Shown: positions 5,805 through 43,599 of the stretch, one piece after another | How the letters are laid out: each line of letters opens with the position of its first letter | Numbering within the stretch: the first letter of the stretch is position 1 | Assembly (NCBI GenBank): GCA_037349315.1 | Contig: JBAIAC010000216.1 | Coordinates: 496,001-560,000 of the forward strand | From: Chelydra serpentina | Lineage: Eukaryota; Chordata; Testudines; Chelydridae | Length of the DNA stretch: 64,000 nucleotides | Direction: 5' to 3' | Notes under the pieces: model-generated | The model's input: the letters and a program-made list of their open reading frames with translations, nothing else | Databases searched by the model: none | Told to the model about the DNA's origin: nothing | Made by a program: the position numbers and the translations under genes

Positions 5805-6109
5805 ATGGGGTTGCTTGTGATGGTAGGGGGAAGGGCTCAACAGCCCTGGAGCTTGCTTCTGGTTTATGTCTTATGTTCCTAAAGCTCATGCTTCATGTTT
5901 CAGCTGGCCAGCAGCAGGGATCAGGAAGGGATTATTTCCCCGCCAGTGTATTCTGTTTTTTTTTTACCTCCTTCCTCTAAGGCTTCAAGGATGCCCACAG
6001 TTGGAGATGGGACATTGGATGGGGCAAGTCAGGACTCTGAGTTAGCACTGAACATTATCTCTCAGGTACTTGGCTGGCTGGTTCTTGCTCACATGCTCAG
6101 GGTCTAACT

Positions 6110-7500
6110 CAGGGGTCGGCAACCTGCGCCATGCGTGCCAAAGACAGCACGTGAGCCGATTTTTAGTGGCACGCTGCTGCCTGCTGGCCCCGCTCAGCCC
6201 ACTGGCGGCTGGGACCCAGGCAGGCAGCAGCGTGCCATTAAAAACCCTTCCCGGCCCAGCCCGCTCGTCTCTGCCACCTGCTCACCGCTCTTTCCTGCGG
6301 GGGCAGGAGGCAGAATTTTGGTCCTCCCAGCTTCTGCTGCAGGGCAGGCTCTGCAGGCAGCCAAGGTCCTCCTCCCCGGCCTCTTCCCTGAGCATGCTGG
6401 GTTCCCGCACCTCCTCCTCTCCCTCCCTGCCGCCGATAAGCTGATGGCTCTTGCGAGGAAGGGGGAGAAGCAGAGCCGCAGCACGCCGCCGCTCGCTGCT
6501 CCAGAGAAGAGGCAGGGACGGGGCCTTGGGGAAGGGGGTGGAATCAGGGCATACCCCCTCCAACCGCCATGAGCCGAGCCCACACCCCCAGCCCTCTGCC
6601 TTGAGCCCGGCACTCCCACACACTCCCCAGGGCTCTGCCCTTACCCCTGAACCCCCCTCACAAACACCCAGCCCTCTGCCCTGACCCCTGCATCCCCCAT
6701 GACCCCAGCACTGACTCCTGACCCCCTCACACACATACCCAGCCCCCCCACACCCCATACCCTGACTCCTGCACCCCCTCACACCTCCCAGCCCCCGTCC
6801 TAACTCTTGCACCCCCCCACATCCCCACCCCCACCCTGAGCACCACATGGGAGCTCCTGCACACACACACCCCACATTCCCACCTGCACCCCTAGCACCA
6901 AATGGGAGCTGTCCAGGTAAGCACTCCACACCCAAACCTCCTGCTCCCCCTCCCTCATTCTAGCTCCTGGCCAGACCCTGCACCCCAACCTGCTCCTTCA
7001 CCCCCAGCCCTGTTCTCAGTGCAGAGAGAGACAAAGAGAATGGGCTAGAACCAGGGAGAAGGTAGGTACCCACTCTTTGTGGGCAGGGCCCCGGCTGGAA
7101 GGAGCCAGCGGACAGAACCCCAGACTGGCAGCGGGATGCGCCGCTCAGCCCGCTGCCGGTCTGAGGTTCTGGCTGCTGGCCCGTTGCCTGCCGGGGTCTA
7201 AGCCATAGGCCCCGCTCAGCCTGCTGCCCGCCTAGGTGAATGGAACCACAGGCCGGCAGCGGGCTGAGCGGGCCAGCGGCGTAAGATCAGCATTTTAATT
7301 TAATTTTAAATTAAGCTTCTTAAACATTTTGAAAACCTTGTTTACTTTACATACAACAATAGTTCAGTTATATAATATATAGACTTATAGCGAGAGACCT
7401 TCTAAAAAACGTTAAAATGTATTTCTGGCATGCTAAACTTTACATTAAAGTGAATAAATGAAGACTCGGCACACCACTTCTGAAAAGTTGCCAACCCTTG
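6110..7500 (+). mobile_element. Non-autonomous hAT element, copy 1 of an inverted pair
   Basis: It starts CAGGGGTCGGCAACCT and ends CAACCCTTG, inverted ends of hAT type. The middle is GC-rich with degenerate CCCCAGCCCTCTGCC-like tandem units; the last 230 bp are AT-rich. There is no transposase. Its flanks do not match each other (GTCTAACT left, CCCTACAC right), but they match the flanks of the inverted copy at 16821-18189 in exchanged order. Orientation is assigned arbitrarily. Confidence 0.7.
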
Positions 7501-7866
7501 CCCTACACTTTGAATACTCAGCAATGCAAAGTGAGGGCAAAGAGGATGTAAAATGCTGCTGCCAGTGTGTGCAACTGGAGTTTTCTTATTTGGTAGCATT
7601 TTACTGCACTGACGCATTACTGTTGCTCCCCACTGAGCTGGGCTAGCAGAGGATGCTACAGTTCATGATTGTGATCCATTGGCAAAACTGCCAGGAGTGG
7701 TGCTGGGCAGGTGGCAATACTGGTCGGGAGTACATTGCATCAGCAGAGATTGCATGGAAGTGCGCACCCAAAGCCTGTCTTTAACCAGCAAATGAGCCCT
7801 GACTAATCACTCAATGACTAAAAAGAAATGTTTCTGTGCACTGCTGGGAATTGCCCACGTTCGGGG
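7501..7866. other. Unassigned spacer
   Basis: No reading frame, repeat end or tandem structure that I recognise. It begins with CCCTACAC, one half of an exchanged hAT target duplication. Confidence 0.5.
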
Positions 7867-8058
7867 GGGGGAGGGATAGCTCAGTGGTTTGAGCATTGGC
7901 CTGCTAAACCCAGGGTTGTGAGTTCAATCCTTGAGGGGGCCATTTAGGGATCTGGGGCAAAAATTGGGGATTGGTCCTGCTTTGAGCAGGGGGTTGGACT
8001 AGATGACCTCCTAAGGTCCCTTCCAACTCTGAAATTCTATGATTCTATGATTCTATGA
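7866..8058 (+). mobile_element. Tortoise-type tRNA-derived SINE with CR1 tail
   Basis: The 5' part is tRNA-like, with a Pol III A box TAGCTCAGTGG (7877-7887) and a B box GAGTTCAATCC (7920-7930). The 3' part (about 7965-8058) is the CR1 3' UTR end, finishing in ATTCTATG repeats. This chimera matches the known tortoise Pol III SINE, which borrows the CR1 tail for retrotransposition. Further copies on the minus strand lie at 44413-44590 and, as fragments, at 42895-42980 and 60593-60627. Confidence 0.85.
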
Positions 8059-8154
8059 ATGAACTGTGGGAAGCTTCTGCTGCTGTCCAGCATCATCTCT
8101 CAGCCCAAGACTTCAGAATCAGGGTCCAAGGAGTTGTCAGTGAGAGGTTGTTCA

Positions 8155-8246
8155 TGGAATCATAGAATCATAGAATCTCAGGGTTGGAAGGGACCTCAGG
8201 AGGTCATCTAGTCCAACCCCGTGCTCAAAGCAGGACCAACCCCAAC
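8155..8246 (-). mobile_element. Short CR1 3' end
   Basis: Reverse complement of the last 90 bp of CR1: ATCATAGAAT tail repeats, then the GGTTGGAAGGGACCTC block. It is severely 5'-truncated, as most CR1 copies are. Confidence 0.8.
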
Positions 8247-8950
8247 TGTTCCCTCTAGACAGTTGCTGGAGGTAATTTACCAACAAAAACTGTATGTCTA
8301 CACTATGAAATTAGTCCTATTTTACAGAAATCGATTTTTGGGAACTGATTGTATAAAGTTGAGAGCGTGCGTCCACACTAAGCACATTAAGTCGACGGAG
8401 TGAGTCCACAGTACTGTGGGAAGCATCGACGTTCCGAGCGGTGCACTGTGGGTAGCTATCCCACAGGTCCCGCAGTCCCCGCTGCCCATTGGAATTCTGG
8501 GTTGGGCTCCCAATGCCTGATGAGGCCAGAAATTTGTCACAGGTGGTTTTGGGTAAATGTCGTCAGTCAACCCTCCCTCCCTCTTTGAAAGCAACGGCAG
8601 ACAATCATTTCACACCCTTTTCCCTGGATTGCCCACGCAGATGCCATAGCGCTGCAAGCATGGAGCCCGATCAGCTCACCACAGCAGTTATGACCATTGT
8701 ATACACCTTGTGCATTATCGTGCAGTTTATGCAGAACCTGAAAAAACAGGCGAGGAGGTGACGGTAGCATGGTGACGAAAGTGATGAGGACATGGACACA
8801 GACTTCTCTCAAAGCACGGGTCCTGGCAATTTAGACATCCTGGTGGCAATGGGGCAGGCTCATGCCGTGGAACGCCAATTCTGGGCACGGGAAACAAGCA
8901 CAGACTCCCCCTTACTCTCACAGAGATTGTGGAGCACACAACAAGCAGCA

Positions 8951-9323
8951 ATGGCCAGTGATGGAATGTTAGAAGTTACTACAGAGAACTTTTTCCTGGG
9001 TGTCTGGTTGATGAGTCTTGCCCACATGCTCAGGGTTTAGCTGATCACCATATTTGAGGTCAGGAAGGAATTTTCCTCCAGGGTGGATTGGCAGAGGCCC
9101 TGGAGGTTTTTCGCCTTCCTCTGTAGCATGGGCAAGTGGGCTGGAGGATTCTCTGCATCTTGAAGTCTTTAAACCATGATTTGAGGACTTTAATAGCTGA
9201 GACATAGGTGAGAGGATTATTGCAGGAGTGGGTGGGTGAGATTCTGTGGCCTGCATTGTGCAGGAGGTCAGACTAGATGATCATAATGGTCCCTTCTGAC
9301 CTTAAAGTCTATGAGTCTATGAG
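8951..9323 (+). mobile_element. LINE 3' UTR fragment, same family as copy A
   Basis: Nearly collinear with 2413-2790, including the GAACTTTTTCCTGGGTGTCTGG stretch and the AGTCTATG tail at 9307-9323. It is a 5'-truncated insertion inside the Harbinger transposase gene. Confidence 0.8.
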
Positions 9324-9366
9324 TTTACTCACTTGTTCAGACCTCAGCAAAACCAATATTCCCATT

Positions 9367-9673
9367 AGCAAAAAGAAAATAAGAAAGAAATACTAGTGGC
9401 ACCTTAGAGACTAACAAATTTATTTCAGCATAAGCTTTCGTGGACTACAGTCCGCTTCGTCGGATGCATGGAATGGAACACTCAGTGAGAGGATATTTAT
9501 ACATATTTATACCTCTCACTGAGTGTTCCATTCCATGCATCCGACGAAGCGGACTGTAGTCCACGAAAGCTTATGCTGAAATAAATTTGTTAGTCTCTAA
9601 GGTGCCACTAGTATTTCTTTCTTATTTTCTTTTTGCTGACACAGACTAACACGGCTACTACACTGAAACCTGT
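9367..9673. mobile_element. Penelope-like fragment forming a perfect 126-bp palindrome
   Basis: Arms 9367-9492 and 9512-9637 are, by eye, exact reverse complements around a 19-bp AT-rich spacer; a 36-bp tail (ACGGCTACTACACTG) follows. A 13-bp duplication, CAATATTCCCATT (9354-9366 and 9674-9686), flanks the insert and lies in transposase codons. Each arm holds a hammerhead-ribozyme-like core: CCGACGA, a stem, GAAA and a short hairpin. The assignment to Penelope-like elements is inferred from this core and the mode of duplication. Confidence 0.55.
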
Positions 9674-9994
9674 CAATATTCCCATTGTTATTGCTGCTTG
9701 TTGTGTGCTCAACAATCTCTGTGAGAGTAAGGGGGAGACGTTTATGGCAGGGTGGGAGGTTGAGGCAAATTGCCAGGCCGCTGATTATGCGCAGCCAGAT
9801 ACCAGGGCGATTAGAAGAGCAGAGCAGGATGCGCTGCACATCAGAGAAGCCTTGAAAACCAGTTTCATGAATGGCCAGTGTACGGTGTGACAGTTCTCTT
9901 TGTTTCTCCTTGATGAAAACGGACCACTTGATCCACTCCACTTCACTTTAAGCCTACCGCCCTCCCCCGTTCGATCACCGCAAAGGCAATAAAA

Positions 9995-12078
9995 TCATTG
10001 TTGTTTCAAAATCATGCATTCCTTATTAATTAAAAACTCAAATAGGGGGATAACTGCCAAGGTAGCGCAGTTGGGGCAGTGGATGAGGGGAGGAGGGAAG
10101 GACAAGGCCACACTGCACTTCAAAACTTGTTGAATGCCAACCTTCTGTTGCTTATGCATTCCTCTGGGGTGGAGTGGTTGGGTGCCCGGAGCCTCCCCCA
10201 CCCCCCACGTTCTTGGGAGTCTGGGTGAGGAGGCTATGGAACTTGGGGAGGAGGGAGGGCGGTTACACAAGGGCTGCAGAGGCGGTCTGTGGTCCTGCTG
10301 CCTTTCCTGAACCTCCAGCAGACACCGGAGCATGTCCGTTTGATCCCACAGTAGCCCCAGCATTGCCTCCTGCCTCCTTTCATCTTGCTGCCGCCACCTC
10401 TCATCTTGATCGTCCCTCCTGTCCTCACGTTCATTTGCCGCTTTCTTGTACTGTGATATTGTTTCCCTCCACCCATTCTGCTGAGCTTTCAGTGTGGGAG
10501 GACTGCATGAGCTCAGAGACCATTTCATCATGCGTGCGTTTTTTTCGCTGCCTAATCTGCGCTAGTCTTTGGGACGGAGATGATATGGGGAGGGTTGAAA
10601 CATTTGCAGCTGCGGGAGGAAAAAAAGGGAGAGTAGTATTTAAAAAGATACATTTTACAGAACAATGGGTAGAGTCTTTCACGGTGAACAAAACTATTCA
10701 CATTACATAGCACATGTGCTTTTGGTACAAGGTCACATTTTGCATCTTATATTGAGTGCCTGTGGGTTTGGTGTGAGAGATCACACACGCAGGGCCGGGC
10801 AACAGAATTCAGCTTGCAGGCTGCCATGGTAAGCCATACTCTTTTGGCTTCTGCAACCTTCATAACAGCAGTGCTCTCCTTTCCCACACCAAGCAAAGCA
10901 CGTTGAAATGGCCATTTATTGCTGCGGTTTTAGGGTTAACATGCAGCAGAAACCCAACTAACACCCCCCGCCATCCAACTCTCTGGGATGATCGCTTCCC
11001 CCTCTTCCCCCACACCGCGTGGCTGGTATCAGGGAACATCCCTGATAGCCAAATGCGAACAGCTCGGCGCCAACGGAACCCCCCCCCACACACACAGCTT
11101 GGCTAACTGCGGGGAGGATTTCTTTTCAGCCACAGGCAAACAACCCAGAAGGAACGGCCACCTCTGAATGTCCCCTTCATAAAATTCCCCTATTTCAACC
11201 AGGTGACCATGAATTATATCATACGCTGCCAGACTTTGTTATGCAATGATACCAGACTACTTGCTACTGGCCTGGCATGGTAAAGTGTCCTACCATGGAG
11301 GACGGAATAAGGCTGCTCTCCCCAGAAACCTTCTGCAAAGGCTTTTAGAGTACCTACAGGAGAGCTTCATGGAGATGTCCCTGGAGGCTTTCCACTCCAT
11401 CCCCAAACACCTTAACAGAATTTTCCAGTAGCTGTACTGGCCACGAATGCATCCCAAGTCCTCAGGGCAACTTAATCATTAAAAAATGCTTGCTTTTAAA
11501 CCATGTATTATATTTACAAAGGTACACTCACCAGATGTGCCTTCTTTGGCTTCACCGTCTAGGATACCGCCTTGGGAGGATTGGGAGGGTATTGGAGTCA
11601 GGGTGAGAAAAACATCCTGGCTGTTGGGGAGAACGGTCTCTCCGCTTGCCTGTTGTGTGCTATGTTCAACCTCGTCCTTCTCATCCTCATCTTCCTCCTC
11701 CGCCAAATCCTCAGGCATGGCCAGCGAGAGTAACCCATTGCAGGAGTCCATGGACAGGGGTGGGGTAGTGGTGGCGGCACCCCCTAGAATTGCATACAGC
11801 TCAGCATAGAAGCGGCATGTCTGGGCCTCCGAGCGTCCATTTGACTCTTTGGTTTTCTGGTATGCTTGCCTGAGCTATTTAATTTTCACACGGCACTGTG
11901 TTGCGTCACTACTGTAGCCTCAGTTCATCATGGTCTTGGAGATGTTGGCATATATATTGGCATTTCGTCTTTTGAAATGTCGTTCTGATAGCATGGATTC
12001 GTTTCCCCATACAGCAATCAGATCCAGTACCTCCCGTTCAGTCCATGCTGGAGCTCTTTTTCGATTCTGGGACTGCAT
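9995..12078 (-). pseudogene. Harbinger Myb/SANT-like DNA-binding protein, decayed
   Basis: Exon 1 starts at 12078 (MQSQNRKRAPAWTERE) and carries a trihelix Myb/SANT-like domain that breaks near 11930; its acidic C-terminal part reads 11751-11600. A conserved GT donor (ATCTGGTGAGTG) follows near 11545. The second exon reads ANVSTLP...QRLAQIRQRKKRTHDE and a Gln/Arg-rich coiled segment down to about 10150. In Harbinger elements this partner protein binds transposon ends and aids nuclear import of the transposase. Several frameshifts make this copy non-functional. Confidence 0.7.
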
Positions 12079-12466
12079 GGTCAAGTGTGCTGATGAGCTC
12101 TGCATGGTCACATGTGCTGTTGAGCTCGCCACACTGGCCAAACAGGAAATGAAATTCAAAAGTTCCCTGGGCTTTTCCTGTATACCTGGCCAGTGCATCT
12201 GAGTTGAGAGTGATGTCCAGAGCAGTCACAATGGTGTACTCTGGGATAGCTCCCGGAGGCCAATACTGTCGAATTGCGTCCACACTACCCCAAATTCGAC
12301 ATGGCGACGTCGAATTCAGCGCTAATCCCCTCGTCGGGGAGTACAGAAATCGATTTTAAGAGGCCTTTAATTAGACAAAACGGCCTCGTTGTGTGGACGG
12401 GTGAAGGATTAAATCGATTTAATGCTGCTAAATTCGACATAAACTCATAGTGTAGACCAGGGCTAA

Positions 12467-12893
12467 AGTGAATTAAGTAAGTGGTAAGATGGTTTAAAGA
12501 TGTGCGTTATTTAGGGATTTGCACCAGTTTAACCGGAATGGTTTAAAATAGATTTATTGAAGCTGGTATAATTTTTCTCCAATCCCTTCCCTTGGGGAGA
12601 TCAATCCATAACCAAATGCAGCTCACTGCAGTGCAGTTTCCCTTCATTTTCAGCCAATTTTTTCTAAACACAATTTTACCCCAATTTTATTCCCCCTAGT
12701 TACATCGTCACTTATCAGCACTTCTTCCCCACCACACCCCACAGGATGTTTACACTCTTGTGATATTTGGAGACAGATACCTAGTAACTCTTATTGTCAG
12801 GGACAAGGTGGAGTGCACCTCTAAGGCCCAGCCCTTACCACTCCGGCAGGAGGCCAAGATACCTGAGCTGATATTTCCTGTCCTATGTGTGTT
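12467..12893. other. Unassigned spacer
   Basis: AT-rich sequence between the Harbinger end and a CR1 tail. I see no coding or repeat signal. Confidence 0.5.
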
Positions 12894-12977
12894 CATAGAA
12901 TCATAGAATCACAGGGTTGGGAGGGACCTCAGGAGGTCATCTAGTTCAACCCCCTGCTTTGGCAGGACCAACCTCAA

Positions 12978-15900
12978 CTAAATCATCCCAGCCAGGGCTT
13001 TGTCAAGCCTGACCTTAAAAACCTCTAAGGAAGGAGATTCCACCACCTCCCTGGGTAACCCATTCCAGTGCTTCACCACCCTACTAGTGAAAAAGTTTTT
13101 CCTAATATCCAACTTAAACCTCCCGCTCTGCAACTTGAGACTGTTATTCCTTGTTCTGTCATCTTCTACCACTGAGAACAGTCTAGATCCATCCTCTTTG
13201 GAATCCCCTTTCAGGTAGTCGAAAGCAGCTATCAAATCCCCCCTCATTCTTCTCTTCTGCAGGCTAAACAATCCCAGTTCCCTCAGCCTCTCCTCATAAG
13301 TCATGTGCTCCAGCCCCCTAATCATTTTTGTTGCCCTCCTCTGGACTCTTTCCAATTTTTCCACATCCTTCTTGTAGTGTGGGGCCCAAAACTGTACTCC
13401 AGATGAGGTCTCACCAGTGCCGAATAGAGGGGAATGATCACGTCCCTCGATCTGCTGGAAATGCCCCTACTTATACAACCCAAAATGCCATTAGCCTTCT
13501 TGGCAACAAGGGAACACTGTTGACTCATATTCAGCTTTTCATCCACTGTAACCCCTAGGTCCTTTTCTGCAGAACTGCTGCCCAGCCATTCAGTCCCTAG
13601 TCTGTAGCAGTGCATGGGATTCTTCTGTCCTAAGTGCAGGACTCTGCACTTGTCCTTGTTGAACCTCATCATATTTCTTTTGGCCCAATCCTCTAATTTG
13701 TCTAGGTCCCTCCCCTACCCTCCAGTGTATCAACCACTCCTCCCAGTTTAGTGTCATTTGCAAACTTGCTAAGGGTGCAGTCCACACCATCCTCCAGATT
13801 GTTAATGAAGATATTGAACAAAACCGGCCACAGCACCGACCCTTATAGATTCATAGATTCTAGGGCTGCATGGGACCTCGAGAGGTCATCGAGTCCAGCC
13901 CCCTGCCCTCATGGCAGGACCAATTACTGTCTAGACCATCCCTGATAGACATTTATTTAACCTACTCTTAAATATCTCCAGAGATGGAGATTCCACAACC
14001 TCCCTGGGCAGTTTATTCCAGTGTTTAACCACCCTGACAGTTAGGAACTTTTTCCTAATGTCCAACCTAAACCTCCCTTGCTGCAGTTTAAGCCCATTGC
14101 TTCTTGTTCTATCCTCAGGTGCTAAGATGAACAAGTTTTCTCCCTCCTCCTTATGACACCCTTTTAGATACCTGAAAACTGCTATCATGTCCCCTCTCAG
14201 TCTTCTCTTTTCCAAACTAAACAAACCCAATTCCTTCAGCCTTCCTTCATAGGTCATGTTCTCTAGACCCTTGGAGCACTCCACTTGATACCGGCTGCCA
14301 ACTAGACATGGAGCCATTGATCACTACCTGTTGAGCACGACCATCTTGCCAGTTTTCTATCCACCTTAGAATCCATTCATCCAGCCCATACTTCTTTAAC
14401 TTGCTGGCAAGAATACTGTGGGAAACTGTATCAAAAGCTTTGCTAAAGTCAAGAAATAGCACATCCACTGCTTTCCCCTCATCCACAGAGCCAGTTATCT
14501 CATCATAGAAGGCAATTAGGTTAGTCAGGCATGACTTGCCCTTGGTGAATCCATGCTGACTGTTCCTGATCACTTTTCTCTCCTTTAAGTGGTTCAGAAT
14601 TGAATCCTTGAGGACCTGTGCTATGATTTTTTCAGGGACTGAGGTGAGACTGACTGGCCTATAGTTCCCCGGATCTTCCTTCTTCCCTTTTTTAAAGATG
14701 GGCACTACATTAGTGTTTTTCCAGTCATCCGGGACCTCCCCCAATTGCCATGATTTTACAAAGACAATGGCCAATGGCTCTGCAATCACATCGGCCAACT
14801 CCTTTAGCACCCTTGGATGCAGTGCCTCCGGCCCCATGGACTTGTGCTTGTCCAGATTTTCTAAATAGTCCCGAACTACTTCTTTCTCCACAGAGGGCTG
14901 GTCACCTCCTCCCCATACCGTGCTGCGGAGTGCAGCTGTCTGGGAGCTGCCCTTGTCTGTGAAGACAGAGGCAAAAAAAGCATTGAGTACACTAGCTTTC
15001 TCCACATCCTCTGTCACTAGGTTCCCTCCCTCATTCAGCAAGGGGTCCACATTTTCCTTGACTTTCTTCTTGTTGCTAACACACCTGAAGAAACCCTTCT
15101 TGTTACTCCTAACATCTCCAGCTAGCTGCAACTCCAAGTGTGATTTGGCCTTCCTAATTTCACTCTTACATGCCTGAGCAATATTTTTATACTCCTCCCT
15201 GGTCATTTGTCCAATCTTCCACTTCTTGTAAGCTGCTTTCTTGTGTTTAAGACGAGCAAGGATTTCACTGTTAAGCCAAGCTGGTCGCCTGCCATATTTA
15301 CTTTTCTTTCTACACATCGGGATGGTTTGTTCCTGCAACCTCAATAAGGATTCTTTAAAATACAGCCAGCTTTCCTCGACTCCTTTACCCCTCATGTTAT
15401 TCTCCCAGGGGACCTTGCCCATCAGTTCCCTGAGGGAGTCAAAGTCTGCTTTTCTGGGTCTCTGTTCTACTGCTCTCCTTTCTTCCTTGTGTCACTATTG
15501 CATCCTCTACTATTTCTTCCCTGTTTGTGAGGAGCAGGTCAAGAAGAGCTTTTCCCCTAGTTGGTTCCTCCAGCACTTGCACCAGGAAATTGTCCCCTAC
15601 ACTTTCCAAAAACTTCCTGGATTGTCTGTGCACCGCTGTATTGCTGTCCCAGCAGATATCGGGGTGATTAAAGTCACCCATGAGAACCAGGGCCTGTGAT
15701 CTACTAACTTCTGTTAGTTGCTGGAAGAAAGCCTCGTCCACCTCATCCCCCTGGTCTGGTGGTCTGTAGCAGACTCCCACCACGACATTACCCTTGTTGC
15801 TCCCACTTCTAAATGTAATCCAGAGACTCTCAGGTTTTTCTGCAGTTTCATACTGGAGCTCTGAGCAGTCATAGTGTTCTCGTACATACAATGCAACTCC

Positions 15901-16031
15901 CCCACCTTTTCTGCCCTGCCTGTCCTTCCTGAACAGTTTGTATCCATCCATGACAGTACTCCAATCATGTGAGTTATCCCACCAAGTCTCTGTTATTCCA
16001 ATTACATTATAATTCCTTGACTGTGCCAGGA
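12978..16031 (-). pseudogene. CR1 ORF2 pseudogene
   Basis: Reading the minus strand, the endonuclease (16031-15470) has ITETWWDN and [11 protein letters not shown], followed by a frameshift near 15455. A 391-codon RT stretch (15422-14247) has [20 protein letters not shown] and [10 protein letters not shown], then the nested CR1. The palm resumes near 13844; the catalytic box reads FAND (13753-13764) instead of FADD. The C-terminal [10 protein letters not shown] block ends at 12978. The FADD change, the frameshifts and the insertion each suffice to inactivate it. Confidence 0.8.
13845..14265 (-). mobile_element. CR1 3' fragment nested in another CR1
   Basis: A 421-bp copy of a different CR1 subfamily (tail ATAGATTCATAGATTC) carrying the last 110 codons of ORF2. 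It is bounded by GACCCTT at 13838-13844 and 14266-14272, and the outer CR1 reads continuously across once one GACCCTT is removed. The duplication shows direction and order: the inner copy is younger. Confidence 0.85.
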
Positions 16032-16487
16032 CAGGTTGTTGCAAAGCACCTTTGTGGAGTTGCAGGGAAAGTATCCAGAGCCAAATGATCTTCAGCAAAA
16101 CCAGGATAAATAGGAAATGGGACCTACTGGAGGAAGTAGGAGGCTTCATATTTTCTGCCTTGTCCACTTCCATGTCTAGGAGACCTGATTAATGTCTGTA
16201 CTGGCCATTTCCCACCAACCTGCCCTTTATTGTTTTATAGAAGGTGCTGGCTTGGCCTCTGATCTCAGTGCCATACCTCTTAGCCCTTCGTCTTCTTTTT
16301 CTCCATGGCTCTAACAGCAGCTGAGGGAAATTTTAACTGCACCTGAGCAACCACTGCAGCAGCAGGTGGCATGTCAGTTTAACGTCTCATCTGACAGATC
16401 ACTAAGGTGGAAAGTACAGAGAGGGAAAAGCAAACACCAAATTCTTCTCCAGGTTCCAGATGAGTAAAAGAGCCATAGAGATTAAGG
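16032..16487. other. Unassigned spacer
   Basis: Short open stretches continue from the CR1 frame into this region but show no domain. No recognised repeat. Confidence 0.45.
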
Positions 16488-16820
16488 CCAGAGGAGACCC
16501 TAGATCATCTAGTCTGACCTCCAGTATATCACAGGCCGGCACTAATACATTAAACACAACAACAGATACGAGACCAAAGTAAATGAGACCCTCAGGAGAC
16601 TAGATTATTATGTGCAACAGGCAGAAAACAGGAGGGAGTGAAGTGCACCCATGCCTGAGGCCCCTGCAGTGGCAGGAGAATAATTGAGATATACCCAGCT
16701 AATCTTTGCAAGTGACCTGTACCCGCACACTGCAGAGGAAGGTGAAAAAGCCCCCAAATCACTGCCAATCTGACCTGGGGAAAAATTCTTTCCCAACTCC
16801 ATACTGGCGATCAGTTAGAC
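16460..16820 (-). mobile_element. LINE 3' UTR end, the displaced partner of LINE copy B
   Basis: In reverse complement it begins GTCTAACTGATCGCC, exactly the LINE 3' UTR sequence that should follow LINE copy B at 6109. It continues through the Phe/Pro-rich UTR blocks shared with 2500-2760 to a CTAGATGATC...CTCTATGG end. Its left end is approximate. Confidence 0.7.
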
Positions 16821-18189
16821 CAGGGGTCGGCAACCTTTCAGAAGTGTTGTGCCGAGTCTTCATTTATTCACTTTAATGTAAAGTTTAGCATGCCAGTAAT
16901 ACATTTTAACATTTTTTAGAAGGTCTCTCTCTAAGTCTATATATTATATAACTGAACTATTGTTGTATGTAAAGTAAACAAAGTTTTCAAAATGTTTAAG
17001 AAGCTTAATTTAAAATTAAATTAAAATGCTGATCTATTCCGCCAGCCCGCTGCTGGTATGGGGTTCCGTCCGCCAGCTCCTTCCACCCGGGGTCCTGGCT
17101 CAGCCGGCTGCCAGTCTGGGGTCCCGGCCCTGCCCACATTGAGTGGGTACCTACCTTCTCCCTGGTTCTAGCCCATTCTCTTTGTCTCTCTCTGCACTGA
17201 GCACAGGGCTGGGGGTGAAGGAGCAGGTTGGGGTGCAGGGTCTGGCCAGGAGCTAGAATGAGGGAGGGGATCAGGGTTGGGGCAGGAGGTTTGGGTGCGG
17301 AGTGCTTACCTGGGCAGCTCCCATTTGGTGCAGGTGGGAATGTGGGGTGTGTGTGTGCAGGAGCTCCCTTGTGGTGTTCAGGGTGTGGGTGGGGATATGG
17401 GGTGTGCAAGAGTCAGGACAGGGGCTGGGAGTGTGTGTGGGGGTGCAGGAGTCAGGGTTGGGGTTGTGCGGGTGTGGGGGGTGCAGGTGTCAGGGCAGGG
17501 GAGTGGGGTGGGTGAGGAGGGTTCAGAAGTCAGGGCAGAGGGCTGGGGATGTGTGTGTGGGAGTGCAGGAGTCAGGGCATGGGGTATGGGGGATGCCGGA
17601 GTCAGTGCTGGGGTCGTGGGGGGGTGCAGGGGTAAGGGCAGAGGGCTGGGGGTGTGTGTGGGGGGGTGCAGGGCTCAAGGTAGAGGGCTGGGGGTGTGGG
17701 CTCGGCTCATGGGGGTTGGAGGGGGTATGCCCTGATTCCACCCCCGCCTTCCCCAAGGCCCCATCCTTGCCTCTTCTCTGGAGCAGCGAGCGGCGGCGTG
17801 CTGCGGCTCTGCTTCTCCCTGTCCCCCTCCCTCGCAAGGGTCATCAGCTGATTGGCAGCAGGGAGGGAGAGGAGGAATGGTGGGAACCCAACATACTCAG
17901 GGAAGAGGCGGGGGAGTGGGGAGCTTGACTGCCTGTGGAGCCTTCCCTCCAGCAGAAGCAGGCAGGACCAAACTTCTGCCTCCTGTCCCCGCAGGAGAGA
18001 GCGGTGAGCAGGGGGCAGAGAAGAGCAGGCTGGGCAGTATTTTTAATGGCATGCTGCTGCCTGCTGGGATCCCGGCCGCTGGCCCCACTCAGCCTGCCGG
18101 CGGCCGGGATCCCAGCAGGCAGCAGCGTGCCACTAAAAATCGGCTCGCGTGCCGTCTTTGGCACGTGTGCCGCAGATTGCTGACCCCTG
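16821..18189 (-). mobile_element. Non-autonomous hAT element, copy 2 of the inverted pair
   Basis: It starts CAGGGGTCGGCAACCT and ends TGACCCCTG; the whole is inverted relative to 6110-7500, with the AT-rich end first and a GC-rich tandem interior. Flanks are AGTTAGAC (16813-16820) and GTGTAGGG (18190-18197). These are the reverse complements of the two flanks of copy 1, paired crosswise. Confidence 0.7.
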
Positions 18190-18266
18190 GTGTAGGGCAA
18201 CAATGAATCAGTCTCTCACTCTGTGAAATACTCTCTTTGCAGCACATCCCCACTTTCTGCCTAGAA

Positions 18267-24879: not shown

Positions 24880-25114
24880 CTTCTGCACCCCATGAATGGC
24901 ACTTCCTGCAATAAGTGACTAGAGAACAGTACAACGAAGGGGGATTGACGGGGAGCAGGTTGCTGAAGAGGCAGAGAGAAGCGGTTTCGGGGGGCGGAGG
25001 AGTTACGCTTAACCCTGAGGGGTGTGACCAGTGAGAAGGGCTGGCACACTAGGGGTTCCTCCTGGAAGCCGTGGGGGCCAAGACCGCACAGGCCTGCAAG
25101 TGGCCAGCAGGAAG

Positions 25115-28100
25115 ATGTATGCTAAGCACCGTAAGAACGACCTGGTGGAGCTGTGCAGGCAGAGGGGGCTGCGCATTGGGAGGTCCACCAAAGACCAGCT
25201 GATTACACAGCTGGAGGAGAAGGATCGCTTGGACGACCCGATCCCTGCCCCTGGGGGAAGCCGCCCGACAGACGCAGCATGGGCCCCAGGGCCTGACCTG
25301 GCTGGGAGGGGTCAGACTGCTGCCGAGGACATCCCAAGACCCCTCTCACCTCTGCACAGGGGAGAGGTTGGGGAAAGCCCAGCAAATACCGAGGGCACCT
25401 TGACCCCGGCGGCCAGCAGGGGATCTTCCCGGCGGAGCTCCCCATCCCAGCAGTGGAGGCGGCTGGATTGGGAGAGGGAGATAAAACTGAAAGAGCTCGA
25501 GTTGAGACAGCAGGAACTGAAGGAGGAGCGGGAAGAACGGGAAAAACAACGTCAGCACGAGGAGAAACAACGTCAGCATGAGCTGGAGGAGAAGGAGAAA
25601 CAACGCCAGCATGAGGTGCAGGAGAAGGAGAAACAACGCCAGCATGAGCTGGAGCTGGCCAGACTGAGGAGCAGTGAGGCCCCGGCTGCGGTGAGTGAGG
25701 GGGAACCCAAGACTACAGGGAAGTTTGATTGTAACTTCCTGGCCCGGCGTAAGGAAGGGGAAGACATAGACAGCTTCCTGGCGGCCTTTGAGAATGCCTA
25801 CAGGTTGCACAAGGTTGACCCTGCAGACAAGATCCAGTATCTCACCCCCTTACTAGACCCTGCAAGCCTGGACGTGTACGGCCGAATGAAAGAGACGGAG
25901 ACTGGGGACTATGAACTGTTCAAAAAGGCCCTGCTCTGCGAGCTTGGGCTGACTCCCGAGATGTACCGTCAAAGGTTCCGGGATCAGCGAAAAACCCCTG
26001 AGATCACGTACCTACAACTGGCCAACCGGATACATGGATACGCCCGCAAGTGGACCGCTGGGGCCCAAACTATGGAGGACCTGCTCGAACTATTCGTACT
26101 GGAACAACTGTATGAACTGTGCCCATCAGACCTGAAGGTATGGTTGATGGACAAAAATCCAGGGAGCCCACAGCACGCAGGGCGGCTGGCCGACCAGTTC
26201 ATGAACAGTCGGTCAAGGGGTGGCAGGGAGGAATCCCAAAGGAGCAGGCCCACCCTGAGGCAGCAAGAGAGTCACCACGGGACCCACCAAAGGGGAAATA
26301 GGGAGAACCCCCTCCCGAGGGGAACCTCCGACACCAGAACCAACCGACCTGCTCGAGGGGACCAACGGGACATGAGCTGCTATCACTGTGGCCAGAGGGG
26401 CCACTTACGGTCCCAATGCCCCAAGATCAGAGACAGACTGAGCAGACCAAACTCACACCGGGTTAACTGGGTAGGGACCCAGCCGGACGAGGGGCCAACA
26501 GCCCAGAAGAGGGGGGCTGGCAGCTTATCAACGGCTCCGGAGGGAGGAAGGCCCCAGACCACCTCCTCGGGGGGGCTGGATGCCCCGGACTCAGGGTTCT
26601 CGGTTTATAGGGTGGCCGCGGGGCTGTCCCTTCGGAGAGAGTGCCTTGTTCCCCTGGAGATAGATGGGAGGAAGGTCACTGGATACTGGGATACGGGCGC
26701 GGAGGTGACGCTGGCCCGGCCCGAGGTGGTGGCCCCAGATCGGGTGGTACCCAACACCTACCTGACCCTAACAGGGGTGGGCGGGACCCCGTTCAAGGTA
26801 CCTGTGGCGAGGGTACACCTGAAATGGGGGGCCAAGGAGGGCCCCAAGGACATTGGGGTGCACCAGCATTTGCCCACTGAGGTACTGATGGGGGGGGACC
26901 TAGAAGACTGGCCCAGTGAGTCCCGGGACACCCTGGTCGTGACCCGTAGCCAAAGCCGGCAAGGGGCGCTACGCCCGGGCCTCAGAGAGGGTGCCTTGCA
27001 CGGGGCGCAAGACCCTGGCCCAGTGGGGAGGGAGTACCCCAGGACCAGGCACAGAGAGGCTGCGACCTCAGACACAGACAGCACGAGGGACCAGGTTCCC
27101 ATTCCTTCCCCAGCGGCTGAGTTCCAGGCCGAGTTACAGAGAGATCCCTCCGTGCGGAAGCTCAGGTACCTGGCCGACCGCAGGGAGGTGCGGACCATGT
27201 GGAGAGGTTGCCAGGAGAGGTTCCTGTGGGAGAAGGGGTTCCTGTACCGGGAATGGGCTCCCCCCGGTAAGATGGAGACGTGGGGGATCAGGAGGCAGCT
27301 GGTGGTCCCCCAGAAGTATCGCCGCAAGCTACTGTACCTAGCCCATGACATCCCTCTCGCAGGGCACCAGGGAATCCGGCGCACCAGGCAGAGGCTGCTA
27401 CAGAACTTTTACTGGCCTGGGGTCTTTACAACTGTCCATCAGTACTGCCGGTCCTGTGACACCTGCCAGCGGGTGGGGAAGGCCCGGGACAAGTGGAAAG
27501 CGGCTTTGAGGCCTTTGCCCATCATAGAGGAGCCCTTCCAGAAGGTGGCCATGGACATAGTGGGGCCTCTCAGCAAGACAACCCGGTCGGGGAAGAAATA
27601 CATTCTGGTGGTGGTAGATTTCGCCACCCGTTACCCCGAGGCGGTGCCTTTATCCTCCATTGAAGCAGACACCGTGGCGGATGCGCTGCTGACCATTTTC
27701 AGCCGAGTGGGGTTCCCCAAGGAAGTCCTGACAGACCAAGGGTCCAACTTCATGTCGGCCCTGCTCCGGTGCTTGTGGGAAAAATGTGGGGTCCGGCACA
27801 GCTGGGCCTCAGCATATCACCCCCAGTCCAATGGGCTGGTGGAGAGGTTCAATGGGACGCTAAAGATGATGCTGAAAACCTTTATGAACCAGCACCCGCA
27901 GGACTGGGACAAATACCTACCGCACCTGCTGTTCGCGTACAGGGAAGTGCCCCAGGAGTCTACCGGATTCTCGCCCTTCGAACTGTTATACGGCAGGAGG
28001 GTATGGGGGCCCCTAGACCTGATGAGAGACGAATGGGAGGGGGAGGCAGCCCCCGAGGGAGAGTCAGTGGTGGAGTATGTCCTGACCTTCCGAGAGAGAC

Positions 28101-29956
28101 TTACTGAGCTCATGGGCCTGGCCAAGGGAAATCTGGCTAGAGCCCAGAGGAAGCAAAAGGTCTGGTATGACCGCACGGCGCGGGCCCGCGCCTACGCCAC
28201 GGGGGATCAGGTGATGGTTCTCATTCCCGTGAGGAAAAACAAGCTGCAGGCCGCTTGGGAAGGCCCTTTCAAGGTTGTCAAGCAGCTAAATGAGGTAAAT
28301 TATGTGGTGGAGCTGTCTAACCGGGCACACCACTGCCGGGTCTACCATGTCAATATGATGAAGCCATATTATGACAGGGGGAATGTGGTGCTGGCCGTGT
28401 GTGGACATTGGGAGGAGCAGGGAAGTGACCCTCTAGTAGATCTATTCCCTGAGATAGGAGCTGGCTCCTCCCAAGGAACGATCCCCCTCTCTGATCAGCT
28501 AACCCCTGCCCAGCAAGCTGAGATCAGAGGGGTGCTGCATCGGTACCAACAGCTGTTTTCCAACCAGCCGGGTCGCACTAATCTGACTGTTCACCGGGTG
28601 CAGACAGGAGCGCACCAACCTATAAGATGCTCCCCGTTCCGAGTCACAGGGAAGACAGCTCGGGACCTGGAAAGAGAGGTCAAGGACATGCTGGCTTTGG
28701 GGGTGATCCAGCCGTCGTCCAGCCCTTGGGCCTCGCCGGTGGTGCTGGTCCCCAAAAAGGATGGGTCGATCCGGTTCTGTGTGGACTATCGGAAGCTCAA
28801 TGCCATCACTGTATCTGATGCCTACCCCATGCCCCGGCCGGACGAGCTCCTAGACAAGCTGGGAGGGGCTCGGTACCTTACCACCATGGATCTTACAAAG
28901 GGCTACTGGCAAGTGCCACTGGATGCAGATGCCCGGCTGAAATCTGCCTTCATTACCCCTCTGGGGCTCTACGAGTTCCTGACCCTGCCTTTCGGCCTCA
29001 AGGGAGCGCCAGCCACCTTCCAGCGCCTGGTGGATCAGCTACTGAAGGGGATGGAGAGCTTCGCTGTGGCATATATCGATGACATCTGTGTCTTTAGCCA
29101 GACGTGGGAGGACCATGTGTCCCAAGTTAAACAAGTGCTGGACCGACTCCGGGAGGCTGGGCTGACCGTAAAAGCGGAGAAGTGCAAGGTGGGGATGGCT
29201 GAAGTGTCCTACTTGGGACACCGGGTGGGGAGCGGCCACCTAAAGCCAGAACCAGCCAAGGTGGAGGTGATCCGGGACTGGCCCGCTCCACAAACTAAGA
29301 AGCAGGTCCAGGCCTTTATTGGGATGGCGGGGTACTATCGAAGATTTGTGCCCCACTTTAGCGCCATAGCCACCCCCATCACTGAGCTATGCAAGAAGGG
29401 GAAGCCAGACAAGGTGGTCTGGACCGAGGAGTGCCAGAGGGCTCTCTGTGCACTGAAGGAGGCTTTGATTAGGGGCCCGGTTCTGGCAAACCCAGACTTT
29501 GACAAGCCCTTTCTGGTGTTCACCGACGCCTCAGACATGGGTCTGGGGGCAGTGTTAATGCAGGAGGATGAAATGGGGCAGAGACACCCCATCGTGTATT
29601 TAAGCAAGAAGCTGCTACCCCGGGAGCAGAATTATGCGGCCATCGAGAAGGAATGCCTGGCCATGGTGTGGGCCCTCAAGAAACTAGAGCCGTATCTATT
29701 CGGGCGACACTTCACCGTGTACACCGACCACTCGCCCCTGACCTGGCTACACCAGATGAAAGGGGCCAACGCCAAGCTCCTGAGGTGGAGCCTGCTCCTG
29801 CAGGATTACGACATGGACGTGGTCCATGTGAAGGGAAGTGCCAACCTGATAGCGGATGCGTTGTCCCGGAGAGGGGGCCCTGAACTTCCCCAGGCCACTG
29901 GTCAGAGTGACCCCGCTCAGTTCAGTCTCGAAGGGGGGAGAGATGTGACGGAGTAG
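25115..29956 (+). CDS. Gag-Pol polyprotein, Gmr1-like order Gag-PR-IN-RT-RNase H
   Basis: An uninterrupted 1613-residue frame. I chose the ATG at 25115 because the related element has its ATG at the same place (54652); the frame extends 28 codons further up without an ATG. Residues from that ATG: SAP-like motif 8-37 (LVELCRQRG, KDQLITQLEE); Glu/Lys/Gln/Arg coiled coil 117-185 with an EKQRQHE repeat; capsid 200-365 with a SCAN-like half at 320-364 (LELFVLEQLYELCP); CCHC knuckle 422-435; protease DTG at 526; integrase zinc finger H744, H751, C781, C784; integrase D814, D874, E910 (D-D-35-E); GPF block near 1050; RT palm Asp 1259 and YIDD with Asp 1322-1323; RNase H D1471, E1511, D1538, D1581. 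All catalytic residues are present. The stop lies 13 bp inside the 3' LTR. Confidence 0.93.
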   Translation: MYAKHRKNDLVELCRQRGLRIGRSTKDQLITQLEEKDRLDDPIPAPGGSRPTDAAWAPGPDLAGRGQTAAEDIPRPLSPLHRGEVGESPANTEGTLTPAASRGSSRRSSPSQQWRRLDWEREIKLKELELRQQELKEEREEREKQRQHEEKQRQHELEEKEKQRQHEVQEKEKQRQHELELARLRSSEAPAAVSEGEPKTTGKFDCNFLARRKEGEDIDSFLAAFENAYRLHKVDPADKIQYLTPLLDPASLDVYGRMKETETGDYELFKKALLCELGLTPEMYRQRFRDQRKTPEITYLQLANRIHGYARKWTAGAQTMEDLLELFVLEQLYELCPSDLKVWLMDKNPGSPQHAGRLADQFMNSRSRGGREESQRSRPTLRQQESHHGTHQRGNRENPLPRGTSDTRTNRPARGDQRDMSCYHCGQRGHLRSQCPKIRDRLSRPNSHRVNWVGTQPDEGPTAQKRGAGSLSTAPEGGRPQTTSSGGLDAPDSGFSVYRVAAGLSLRRECLVPLEIDGRKVTGYWDTGAEVTLARPEVVAPDRVVPNTYLTLTGVGGTPFKVPVARVHLKWGAKEGPKDIGVHQHLPTEVLMGGDLEDWPSESRDTLVVTRSQSRQGALRPGLREGALHGAQDPGPVGREYPRTRHREAATSDTDSTRDQVPIPSPAAEFQAELQRDPSVRKLRYLADRREVRTMWRGCQERFLWEKGFLYREWAPPGKMETWGIRRQLVVPQKYRRKLLYLAHDIPLAGHQGIRRTRQRLLQNFYWPGVFTTVHQYCRSCDTCQRVGKARDKWKAALRPLPIIEEPFQKVAMDIVGPLSKTTRSGKKYILVVVDFATRYPEAVPLSSIEADTVADALLTIFSRVGFPKEVLTDQGSNFMSALLRCLWEKCGVRHSWASAYHPQSNGLVERFNGTLKMMLKTFMNQHPQDWDKYLPHLLFAYREVPQESTGFSPFELLYGRRVWGPLDLMRDEWEGEAAPEGESVVEYVLTFRERLTELMGLAKGNLARAQRKQKVWYDRTARARAYATGDQVMVLIPVRKNKLQAAWEGPFKVVKQLNEVNYVVELSNRAHHCRVYHVNMMKPYYDRGNVVLAVCGHWEEQGSDPLVDLFPEIGAGSSQGTIPLSDQLTPAQQAEIRGVLHRYQQLFSNQPGRTNLTVHRVQTGAHQPIRCSPFRVTGKTARDLEREVKDMLALGVIQPSSSPWASPVVLVPKKDGSIRFCVDYRKLNAITVSDAYPMPRPDELLDKLGGARYLTTMDLTKGYWQVPLDADARLKSAFITPLGLYEFLTLPFGLKGAPATFQRLVDQLLKGMESFAVAYIDDICVFSQTWEDHVSQVKQVLDRLREAGLTVKAEKCKVGMAEVSYLGHRVGSGHLKPEPAKVEVIRDWPAPQTKKQVQAFIGMAGYYRRFVPHFSAIATPITELCKKGKPDKVVWTEECQRALCALKEALIRGPVLANPDFDKPFLVFTDASDMGLGAVLMQEDEMGQRHPIVYLSKKLLPREQNYAAIEKECLAMVWALKKLEPYLFGRHFTVYTDHSPLTWLHQMKGANAKLLRWSLLLQDYDMDVVHVKGSANLIADALSRRGGPELPQATGQSDPAQFSLEGGRDVTE
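29931..29943 (+). promoter_or_regulatory. Polypurine tract
   Basis: AAGGGGGGAGAGA directly precedes the 3' LTR and overlaps the last gag-pol codons; it would prime plus-strand synthesis. The second element has GGAGGGGGGAGAGA in the same place (57802-57815). Confidence 0.85.
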
Positions 29957-31123: not shown

Positions 31124-33970
31124 GTGGGATACCGGGAGGAAGCACAAGTAGGTGAGTGCAAGAGGGGAGGGCTCCTGCCCCATACTGGGACAGCAGGACA
31201 ATCGGTGAGTTATCTTAAATGCCTATACACAAATGCAAGAAGCCTGGGGAACAAGCAGGGAGAACTGGAAGTCCTGGCACAGTCAAGGAATTATGACGTA
31301 ATTGGAATAACAGAGACTTGGTGGGATAACTCACACGATTGGAGTACTGTCATGGATGGATATAAACTGTTCAGGAAGGATAGGCAGGGCAGAAAAGGTG
31401 GGGGAGTTGCGTTGTATGTAAGAGAGCAGTATGACTGCTCAGAGCTCCAGTATGAAACTGCAGAAAAACCTGAGAGTCTCTGGATTAAATTGAGAAGTGT
31501 GAGCAACAAGGGTAATGTCGTGGTGGGAGTCTGCTACAGACCACCAGACCAGGCGGATGAGGTGGACGAGGCTTTCTTCCAGCAACTAACAGAAGTTAGT
31601 AGATCACAGGCCCTGGTTCTCATGGGTGACTTTAATCACCCCGACATCTGCTGGGAGAGCAATACAGCGGTCCACAGACAATCCAGGAAGTTTTTGGAAA
31701 GTGTAGGGGACAATTTCCTGGTGCAAGTGCTGGAGGAACCAACTAGGGGAAAAGCTCTTCTTGACCTGCTGCTCACAAACAGGGAAGAAATAGTAGAGGA
31801 AGCAATAGTGGATGGGAACCTGGGAGGCAGTGACCATGAGATGGTCGAGTTCAGGATCCTGACACAAGGAAGAAAGGAGAGCAGTAGAATACAGAGCCTG
31901 GACTTCAGAAAAGCAGACTTTGACTCCCTCAGGGAACTGATGGGCAAGGTCCCCTGGGAGAATAACATGAGCGGGAAAGGAGTCGAGGAAAGCTGGCTGT
32001 ATTTTAAAGAATCCTTATTGAGGTTGCAGGAAGAAACCATCCCGATGTGTAGAAAGAAAAGTAAATATGGCAGGCGACCAGCTTGGCTTAACAGTGAAAT
32101 CCTTGCTCGTCTTAAACACAAGAAAGCAGCTTACAAGAAGTGGAAGATTGGACAAATGACCAGGGAGGAGTATAGAAATATTGTTCAGGCATGCAGGAGT
32201 GAAATTAGGAAGGCCAAATCACACTTGGAGTTGCAGCTAGCTGGAGATGTTAGGAGTAACAAGAAGGGTTTCTTCAGGTATGTTAGCAACAAGAAGAAAG
32301 TCAAGGAACGTGTGGGCCCCTTGCTGAATGAGGGAGGGAACCTAGTGACAGAGGATGTGGAGAAAGCTAGTGTACTCAATGCTTTTTTTGCCTCTGTCTT
32401 CACAGACAAGGGCAGCTCCCAGACGGCTGCACTCCGCAGCACGGTATGGGGAGGAGGTGACCAGCCCTCTGTGGAGAAAGAAGTAGTTCGGGACTATTTA
32501 GAAAAGCTGGACGAACACAAGTCCATGGGGCCGGATGCACTGCATCCGAGGGTGCTAAAGGAGTTGGCCGTTGTGATTGCAGAGCCATTGGCCATTATCT
32601 TTGACAAATCATGGCAATCGGGGGAGGTCCCGGATGACTGGAAAAAAGCTAATGTAGTGCCCATCTTTAAAAAAGGGAAGAAGGAAGATCCGGGGAACTA
32701 CAGGCCAGTCAGTCTCACCTCAATCCCTGGAAAAATCATGGAACAGGTCCTCAAGGAATCAATTCTGAACCACTTAAAGGAGGGGAAAGTGATCAGGAGC
32801 AGTCAGCATGGATTCACCAAGGGCAAGTCATGCCTGACTAACCTAATTGCCTTCTATGATGAGATAACTGGCTCTGTGGATGAGGGGAAAGCAGTGGATG
32901 TGCTATTTCTTGACTTTAGCAAAGCTTTTGATACAGTCTCGCACAGTGTTCTTGCCAGCAAATTAAAGAAGTATGGGCTGGATGAATGGACGGTAAGGTG
33001 GATAGAAAACTGGCTGGATGGTCGTGCTCAACGGGTAGTGATCAATGGCTCCATGTCTAGTTGGCAGCCGGTATCAAGTGGAGTGCCCCAAGGGTCGGTG
33101 CTGGGGCCGGTTTTGTTCAATATCTTCATCAACGACCTGGAGGATGGTGTGGACTGCACCCTTAGCAAGTTTGCAGATGACACTAAACTGGGAGGAGTGG
33201 TTGATACGCTGGAGGGTAGGGATAGGATACAGAGGGACCTAGACAAATGAGAGGATTGGGCCAAAAGAAATCTGATGAGGTTCAACAAGGACAAGTGCAG
33301 AGTCCTGCACTTAGGACGGAAGAATCCCATGCACTGCTACAGACTAGTGACCGAATGGCTGGGCAGCAGTTCTGCAGAAAAGGACCTAGGGGTTACAGTG
33401 GATGAAAAGCTGAATATGAGTCAACAGTGTGCCCTTGTTGCCAAGAAGGCTAACGGCATTTTGGGCTGTATAAGTAGGGGCATTTCCAGCAGATCGAGGG
33501 ACGTGATTATTCCCCTCTATTCGGCACTGGTGAGGCCTCATTTGGAGTACTGTGTCCAGTTTTGGGCCCTACACTACAAAAAGGATGTGGATAAATTGGA
33601 AAGAGTCCAATGGAGGGCAACAAAAATGATTAGGGGGCTGGAGCACACGACTTATGAGGAGAGGCTGAGGGAACTGGGATTGTTTAGCCTGCAGAAGAGA
33701 AGAGTGAGGGGGGATTTGATAGCTGCTTTCAACTACCTAAAAGGGGGTTCCAAAGAGGATGGATCTAGACTGTTCTCAGTGGTAGATGACAGAACAAGGA
33801 GTAATGGTCTCAAGTTGCAGAGGGGGAGGTTTAGGTTGGATATTAGGAAAAACTTTTTCACTAGTAGGGTGGTGAAGCACTGGAATGGGTTACCTAGGGA
33901 GGTGGTGGAATCTCCTTCCTTAGAGGTTTTTAAGGTCAGGCTTGACAAAGCCCTGGCTGGGATGATCTAG
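31124..33970 (+). pseudogene. CR1 ORF2, complete apart from one nonsense codon
   Basis: A single frame stays open from 31124 (GTG; the true start is unclear, perhaps a non-ATG or reinitiation site 45 bp after ORF1) to the stop at 33968-33970, except for TGA at 33248-33250, where related copies have TTA (Leu). The APE-type endonuclease has [19 protein letters not shown] and GGSDHEM; the RT has [32 protein letters not shown] and FADD (33170-33181); the C-terminus has ATKMIRG. Length (about 948 codons) and motifs are those of a full ORF2. It nicks AT-rich targets and reverse-transcribes RNAs with the CR1 tail, presumably also the tortoise-type SINEs. Confidence 0.88.
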
Positions 33971-34063
33971 TTGGGGTTGGTCCTGCTTTGAGCAGGGGGT
34001 TGGACTAGATGACCTCCTGAGGTCCCTTCCAACCCTGAGATTCTATGATTCTATGATTCTATG

Positions 34064-38706: not shown

Positions 38707-39084
38707 TTAGCCCTGGTCTACACTACGAGTTTAGGTCGAATTTATTAGCATTATATCGATTGATCCGTGCACCCGTCCACACGACGAAGCCATTAACATT
38801 GACGTCTAGGGCTCTTAAAATCGATCTCGCCACTCCACCCCCAACGAGGGGATTAGCGCTAAAATCGATATTGCCGACTCGAACTAGGCTTAGTGTGGAT
38901 GCAATTTGACGGTATTGGCCTCCTGGATCTATCCCACAGTGCAACATTTGACCGCTCTGGACCGCAGTCTGAGCTCGAATGCTCTGCCCAGGTAAACAGG
39001 AAAAGCCCTGCGAACTTTTGAATTTCATTTCCTGTTTGGTCAGCTTGGTGAGCTGCAGGTGAGTGCAGATCTCATCAGCAGACC

Positions 39085-41071: not shown

Positions 41072-41355
41072 AGTGCTGTGTGTCCTTGTCCTTGTCCTTC
41101 CCTCATCCCCTCCTCCACCACCCATCCTGGTGCTTCCCTACCTCCACCATCCATCCCGGGCGACCGTGGCAGTTACCCCCATAGTTCCCCCTCTTTGTTT
41201 GAAGAATTAATAAAGAATGCATGATTGTTAAGCAACAATGACTTTATTGCCTCTGCAAGCGGTGATCGCGGGGTGGTGGGCAGGGCAGTTTGGTTAAAGG
41301 GAAGTAGAATGAATCAAGGGGCGGGGCTTTTCAGTAATGGGGAAAAACTGAACTT

Positions 41356-42651: not shown

Positions 42652-42894
42652 GCCTTCCCTGGTATGGTGTCTGCAGGACAGCAGAAGCGGCGGGTGGATA
42701 ACAATGGTGTCAGCAATATGGCGCCCGCATAAAAAAAGGCACGAAAGGATTTTGGGCTCCCCCCTCAGCAGGAGGGGGAAAGCAAGGTTTAGGCTCCTTT
42801 CCTTCTAACAGCAGATGGTACAATATGCAGGGAGCAAGGGTTAGGCACCTTCCCTTCTAGCTGCAGATGGTTCAATAAGCTTGATATCCCTCAT

Positions 42895-42980
42895 CATCTC
42901 CTGGCCCCCTCAAGGATTGAACTCGCAATCCCCGGTTTAGTGGGCCAACGCTCAGACCGCTGAGCTATCCCTCTGCCCGT
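42895..42980 (-). mobile_element. Fragment of a tortoise-type SINE (tRNA-like head)
   Basis: Reverse complement reads GGGATAGCTCAGCGG and GCGAGTTCAATCC (A and B boxes) but lacks the CR1 tail. It lies within the Harbinger subterminal region. Confidence 0.75.
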
Positions 42981-43599
42981 ATTATAGCGCGACTGAATCC
43001 CCACTAGACCTAATGTCCAGGTGTACGCTGGAGATGTATGGTAATTGTGGGCTGAGCAGGCTCCATGCTTGCCGTAGCAAACCTGGAAACCCCGTAAACC
43101 CCGGAAAAAAGGCGTGAAAAAGATTGCTTTCACGGAGGGAGGGAGGGACGTTTGATGGCTTGACGACATGTACCCAGAACCACCAGCGACAATGTTTTCT
43201 GCCCCATCAGGCTTTGGGATCGCAACCCAGAATTCCAATGGGCGGCGGAGACTGCGGGAACTGTGGGATAGCTACCCGCAATGCAACGCTCCGAAAGTCG
43301 ATGCTAGCCCCGATACTGTGGATACAGTCCGTCGACCTCATGGTCTTAATGCTCTTAAGTGGGGACACACACAATCTATTCCATAAATTCAGGTTTTAAA
43401 ATATCGACTTTTATAATTTCGACCTAATTCTGTAGTGTAGACGTACCCTTAGTTGTGCTAAGGCTGCTTACAAAGCCCTTACAGTTGCTTTCAGCAATCA
43501 GCATAACAATTGGTATTCCAGCGGTGGGCAGCGATTTAGGCATGTTACTGGGTTAACAATTTTTTTCCCTTACAATTATATGTCTCCCCCTTTACATTC

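Follow-up and report, generated by a model that had tools for sequence, protein, structure and literature searches.

Inverted homologous copies of a transposable element that recombine with each other invert the DNA between them and leave exchanged target duplications and chimeric copies, as is stated for the transposon Galileo (PMC2775673). In the Galileo inversions 2z3, 2j and 2q7 of Drosophila buzzatii, homologous DNA transposons are found in opposite orientation at both breakpoints (PMC2775673), as is the case at the turtle locus described in this work. The L1/Alu recombination-mediated inversions that distinguish human and chimpanzee likewise involve inverted copies of the same family in a vertebrate, and comprise 49 loci ranging from 166 bp to 81,189 bp (mean 5364, median 1452) (PMC2603318). 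In Atlantic cod, hAT-derived MITEs, with mean lengths near 1.3-1.4 kb in one family, are located at vertebrate inversion breakpoints, for which ectopic recombination is proposed (PMC12368964). In maize, reversed-ends transposition of Ac, an element characterised by an 8-bp target duplication, generates inversions whose breakpoints carry hAT elements, together with 8-bp duplications, as here (PMC8225341). The same source sets this process against recombination between inverted copies, in which the inner duplications become inverted and the flanks end up non-identical (PMC8225341); the latter is the pattern at this locus. For turtles, six recent horizontal transfers of a hAT element have been reported (PMC11008031). 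In the open-licence literature, no title or abstract opening among the matches listed referred to a turtle inversion between hAT copies.

The window, which is the whole 64-kb stretch of DNA analysed, contains two hAT-like copies in opposite orientation, and the segment between them is inverted relative to the order in which a LINE tail was intact (Table 1). Ectopic recombination between the inverted hAT copies is quite probably the best explanation of this arrangement.

Table 1. Position of the features of the inverted locus in the window.
Feature	Position	Strand	Details
Target octamer x, outer copy, GTCTAACT	6102..6109	+	left flank of copy 1
Octamer CCCTACAC, reverse complement of target octamer y	7501..7508	+	now on the inner side of copy 1
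Octamer AGTTAGAC, reverse complement of x	16813..16820	-	inner side of copy 2
Target octamer y, outer copy, GTGTAGGG	18190..18197	+	right flank of copy 2
hAT-like element, copy 1	6110..7500	+	1391 bp; superfamily name assumed
hAT-like element, copy 2	16821..18189	-	1369 bp; orientation opposite to copy 1
Near-identical stretch, candidate place of exchange	6947..7075	+	129 aligned columns, 1 mismatch against 17141-17269
Truncated LINE (presumably CR1-type) 3' tail, 5' part, left outer flank	6040..6109	+	start approximate; MAFFT with two other tail copies; BLAST from 6071
Same LINE tail, 3' part, inverted	16470..16812	-	low end approximate
Segment inverted with respect to the intact LINE tail	7501..16820	.	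9320 bp; crosswise octamers and LINE join

All four termini of the two copies carry CAGGGGTCGGCAACC-like short terminal inverted repeats, a type of end motif which we take to be typical of hAT elements, the superfamily name being our assumption. The 8-bp target duplication, as in the hAT superfamily, is present once the inversion is undone. Compared across its own element, each octamer pair has mismatches at 5 of the 8 positions, for copy 1 as well as for copy 2, while the crosswise pairs, reverse complemented, have none at x (0/8) and none at y (0/8). The preliminary description had reported hAT copies with exchanged octamers at these positions, and it is borne out by eight matches of eight crosswise, twice, against three of eight, twice, for the own flanks. 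The octamer GTCTAACT occurs once per strand in the window, at the outer x site and, as AGTTAGAC, on the inner side of copy 2. The y octamer is present at six window sites over both strands, the other four being 15595, 31701, 33567 and 59369; as it is not rare in the window, what makes it informative is that it directly abuts the element ends. In a BLAST comparison of the joined flanks the crosswise match extends past the octamers by one base at x and by three at y. These extra matching bases are coincidence, the limits of the octamers being set by the element ends.

The probability that two octamers of the window are reverse complements of each other is 3.0e-5, and that for both pairs is 9e-10, figures which ignore any target preference of the element. 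If the two hAT insertions were unrelated and their original duplications had decayed, both crosswise matches would have to arise by chance, at about 9e-10, and the same join that pairs the x octamers restores the LINE tail. On these two grounds chance agreement of the octamers was rejected; no support was found for such a coincidence, whose probability is negligible.

The LINE tail, which we take to be of CR1 type, is split between the two ends of the locus. Its left part is recognised by BLAST from 6071 and, in the MAFFT alignment, perhaps from about 6000-6040, and it extends to 6109; the inverted part runs in the MAFFT alignment from 16812 down to about 16470. In order to examine the junctions, the four flanks were joined in all six pairings, each join was compared with the window in which the flanks had been masked, and a junction was considered crossed if a match ran at least 15 bases past it on both sides. 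Only one of the six joins, in which the left flank of copy 1 is followed by that of copy 2 in reverse (the x join), crosses its junction. It aligns across the junction to 2463-2607 (76.0%, E 1e-22) and to 9016-9126 (75.7%, E 5e-16), the latter being itself located within the inverted segment. None of the other five joins crosses its junction, the matches of the LINE part ending at or short of it and in one case 1 base beyond; nothing in the masked window matches the crosswise y join. In a three-row alignment the x join, '..cacatgctcagggtctaactgatcgcca..', has one octamer only and is in register with '..cacatgctcggggttcagctgattgcca..' and '..cacatgctcagggtttagctgatcacca..', so that the restored x site is continuous and has no visible gain or loss of bases. 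Since the x join restores the LINE, the LINE was once whole, a hAT element inserted into it, and of the two orders the present one is derived. The y site in its uninverted state should be regarded as a prediction, as no sequence of the window matches the joined y flanks.

The statement of the preliminary description that 7501-16820 was flipped thus holds, on the evidence of the crosswise octamers and of a LINE tail that is restored by the x join only. Its account of the LINE 3' UTR, which was said to end at 6109 and to resume inverted over 16820-16460, is correct as to the continuation and needs adjustment as to the limits, which are 16812 to about 16470, since a start at 16820 counts in the second octamer. 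It had further stated that all junctions are visible; this applies to the x junction but not to the y junction, for which the window contains no comparable sequence.

Relatives of the split LINE are present elsewhere in the window. A reverse transcriptase domain (RVT_1, E 1.4e-33) is found at 326-1927; downstream of it lies another tail of this family, with its end near 2790. The LINE copies at 12893-16032, 31271-34056, 52317-53623 and 58380-59806 are about 94-97% alike over long stretches; the first of these, located in the inverted segment on the minus strand, has a reverse transcriptase match.

The inverted segment also includes, at 9354-9686, a SINE-like insertion (the family assignment is our assumption) built round a palindrome, whose arms lie at 9367-9492 and 9512-9637, with complementarity at 126 of 126 positions and a 19-base spacer between them. 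The direct repeat CAATATTCCCATT flanks the insertion at 9354 and 9674. The whole looks like a single retrotransposition event in which the inserted sequence would have been duplicated in inverted form. Next to it, 8905-8952 and 9690-9737 are inverted duplicates of each other (48 bp, 98%), located where a LINE tail (8949-9324) has its 5' edge; this tail sits inside a degraded repeat that is related to 38707-43336. Relative to its neighbours, the piece at 8905-8952 matches the degraded repeat in reverse orientation, as though template switching had copied it at the insertion of the LINE. By eye, the frame list contains at 41356-42651 frames resembling a Harbinger-type transposase, pieces of a repeat related to which occur within the inverted segment, and at 25031-29956 a single open frame of 1641 aa that resembles an LTR retrotransposon polyprotein.

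Comparison with the whole window and alignment to each other identify the two hAT-like copies as inverted homologues along their length, and the self-comparison of the 64-kb window detected only these two members of the family. In a global alignment they differ at 154 of 1268 aligned columns (12.1%), or at 118 (9.3%) if CpG differences are excluded, with many indels amounting to 224 gap columns; the longest exact stretch common to both is 67 bp. Dating from these differences was left out, because with two copies ageing and subfamily differences are inseparable, and because the alignment is poor in two stretches (columns 591-770 and 1096-1275). Eight frames of at least 110 aa overlap the two copies; six were searched and none has a Pfam match at E 0.001, which fits non-autonomous elements, expected to be without hAT transposase. 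The element-end pattern was found in two stretches of viral contigs, and as blastn aligns neither to the window at E 1e-3, both are taken as chance; a longer version of the pattern has no match in prokaryote genome contigs, and a LINE pattern has none in viral contigs. These collections being viral and prokaryote, misses in them are uninformative about the host.

The most similar part of the two copies is the stretch of 129 columns with one mismatch listed in Table 1, which was selected post hoc, after inspection of the data. When the positions of the differences were shuffled, a 129-column stretch as good was reached in 2 of 5000 shuffles, and in 40 of 5000 once the two poorly aligned stretches were omitted. 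This stretch may mark the point of exchange, or it may simply be a better-conserved part of the family; it is a plausible crossover substrate.

These data bear on a different origin of the locus by hybrid-element insertion, in which two copies at one site are involved, only one insertion site exists beforehand and the second octamer pair is made by the event itself. Such an event needs no second prior insertion, and its outcome is described as strikingly similar to that of ectopic recombination, except that the copies are identical (PMC2775673). Here the copies carry the differences and gaps given above, yet 16 of 16 octamer positions are unchanged. The probability of this at the divergence of the copies is 0.13, or 0.21 without the CpG differences, which is weak evidence, and ageing could have made identical copies diverge, so that the hybrid-element origin is weakened only. 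Even the ageing of identical copies, however, would rarely yield one 129-column stretch so much more alike than the rest, and altogether we judge this origin to be distinctly unlikely.

An error of the assembly could also give the same picture, if the segment between the inverted repeats had been misoriented and the true chromosome were uninverted. A flip of this kind should leave the same crosswise flanks, and in the human-chimpanzee comparison one inversion locus between inverted repeats was dropped as an assembly error (PMC2603318). The window, however, contains no Ns (0), and the copies, which share no exact stretch above 67 bp in their alignment and have many indels, should be placed correctly by long reads. 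An artefact is unlikely.

With recombination between the inverted copies as the preferred reading, the order of events would be as follows. The CR1-type LINE tail would have been present first, and one hAT-like element would have entered it, duplicating GTCTAACT. A second copy of the same family would have inserted about 9.3 kb away in the opposite orientation, duplicating GTGTAGGG. Later, homologous recombination by the host machinery between the inverted copies, with a crossover inside the elements, would have flipped the 9320 bp between them and left each element flanked by one octamer of each target. If inverted copies recombined inside the elements, both present elements should be chimeric, each combining parts of the two original insertions. 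Recombination between inverted copies predicts octamers that match crosswise and a LINE tail that the x join makes whole again, and it is supported by both; these features are read directly from the locus, as are the opposite orientation of the copies and the single octamer at the restored x site. Two separate insertions before the event, a crossover within the elements and the original form of the y site are what we infer. The preliminary description had called the pattern exactly what recombination between inverted hAT copies would leave. The octamers and the LINE do fit, but the word is too strong, because a hybrid-element insertion or a flip of the assembly, neither of which it had considered, would look alike.

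Instead of a reciprocal crossover, template switching between the inverted copies during replication might have produced the inversion. Highly similar stretches in inverted copies at a distance of 9.3 kb would presumably be suitable substrates for this, and the same flanks would be expected. The x junction has neither extra nor missing bases and a single sequence cannot separate template switching from crossover; we consider the former very improbable. Reversed-ends transposition was rejected, as the copies are inverted and not direct, both octamer pairs are crosswise and the LINE has no visible loss at x. When aberrant transposition involves copies at separate sites, deletions or duplications result (PMC2775673); nothing of the kind is visible at x.

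If recombination between the copies made the inversion, the flip might be reversible and still segregating: the copies could recombine again, both orders could coexist and the inversion could have arisen more than once. We regard this as quite improbable.

At this locus one sequence, without an outgroup, provides both the fact and the direction of a rearrangement, by means of the crosswise duplications and the split LINE. This suggests a scan of single assemblies for transposons whose target duplications match only crosswise with those of an inverted neighbour, which could count inversions and flag flipped contigs.

Among the described systems, the Galileo inversions have exchanged target duplications as found here, and the uninverted 2z3 chromosomes have a single target copy per breakpoint (PMC2775673). 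They differ in that Galileo belongs to the P superfamily and makes 7-bp duplications, while the elements of this work are hAT-like, with 8 bp, and enclose 9.3 kb; furthermore, 2z3 could be set beside uninverted chromosomes, and chimerism of its copies was demonstrated (PMC2775673), whereas the present inversion is known from one sequence. The size of 9.3 kb falls within the range of the human-chimpanzee L1/Alu inversions, which differ in being due to retrotransposons and in having been detected by comparison of two genomes (PMC2603318). In Atlantic cod the elements form tandem accumulations at the breakpoints of large inversions, and the evidence is of another kind, given that the term 'target site' is absent from the main text of the article (PMC12368964). 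Reversed-ends transposition of maize Ac differs in beginning with direct copies, in making a new duplication and in losing the fragment between the copies (PMC8225341). The locus described here is thus a new, clean and unusually readable instance of a known mechanism, and not a new kind of rearrangement.
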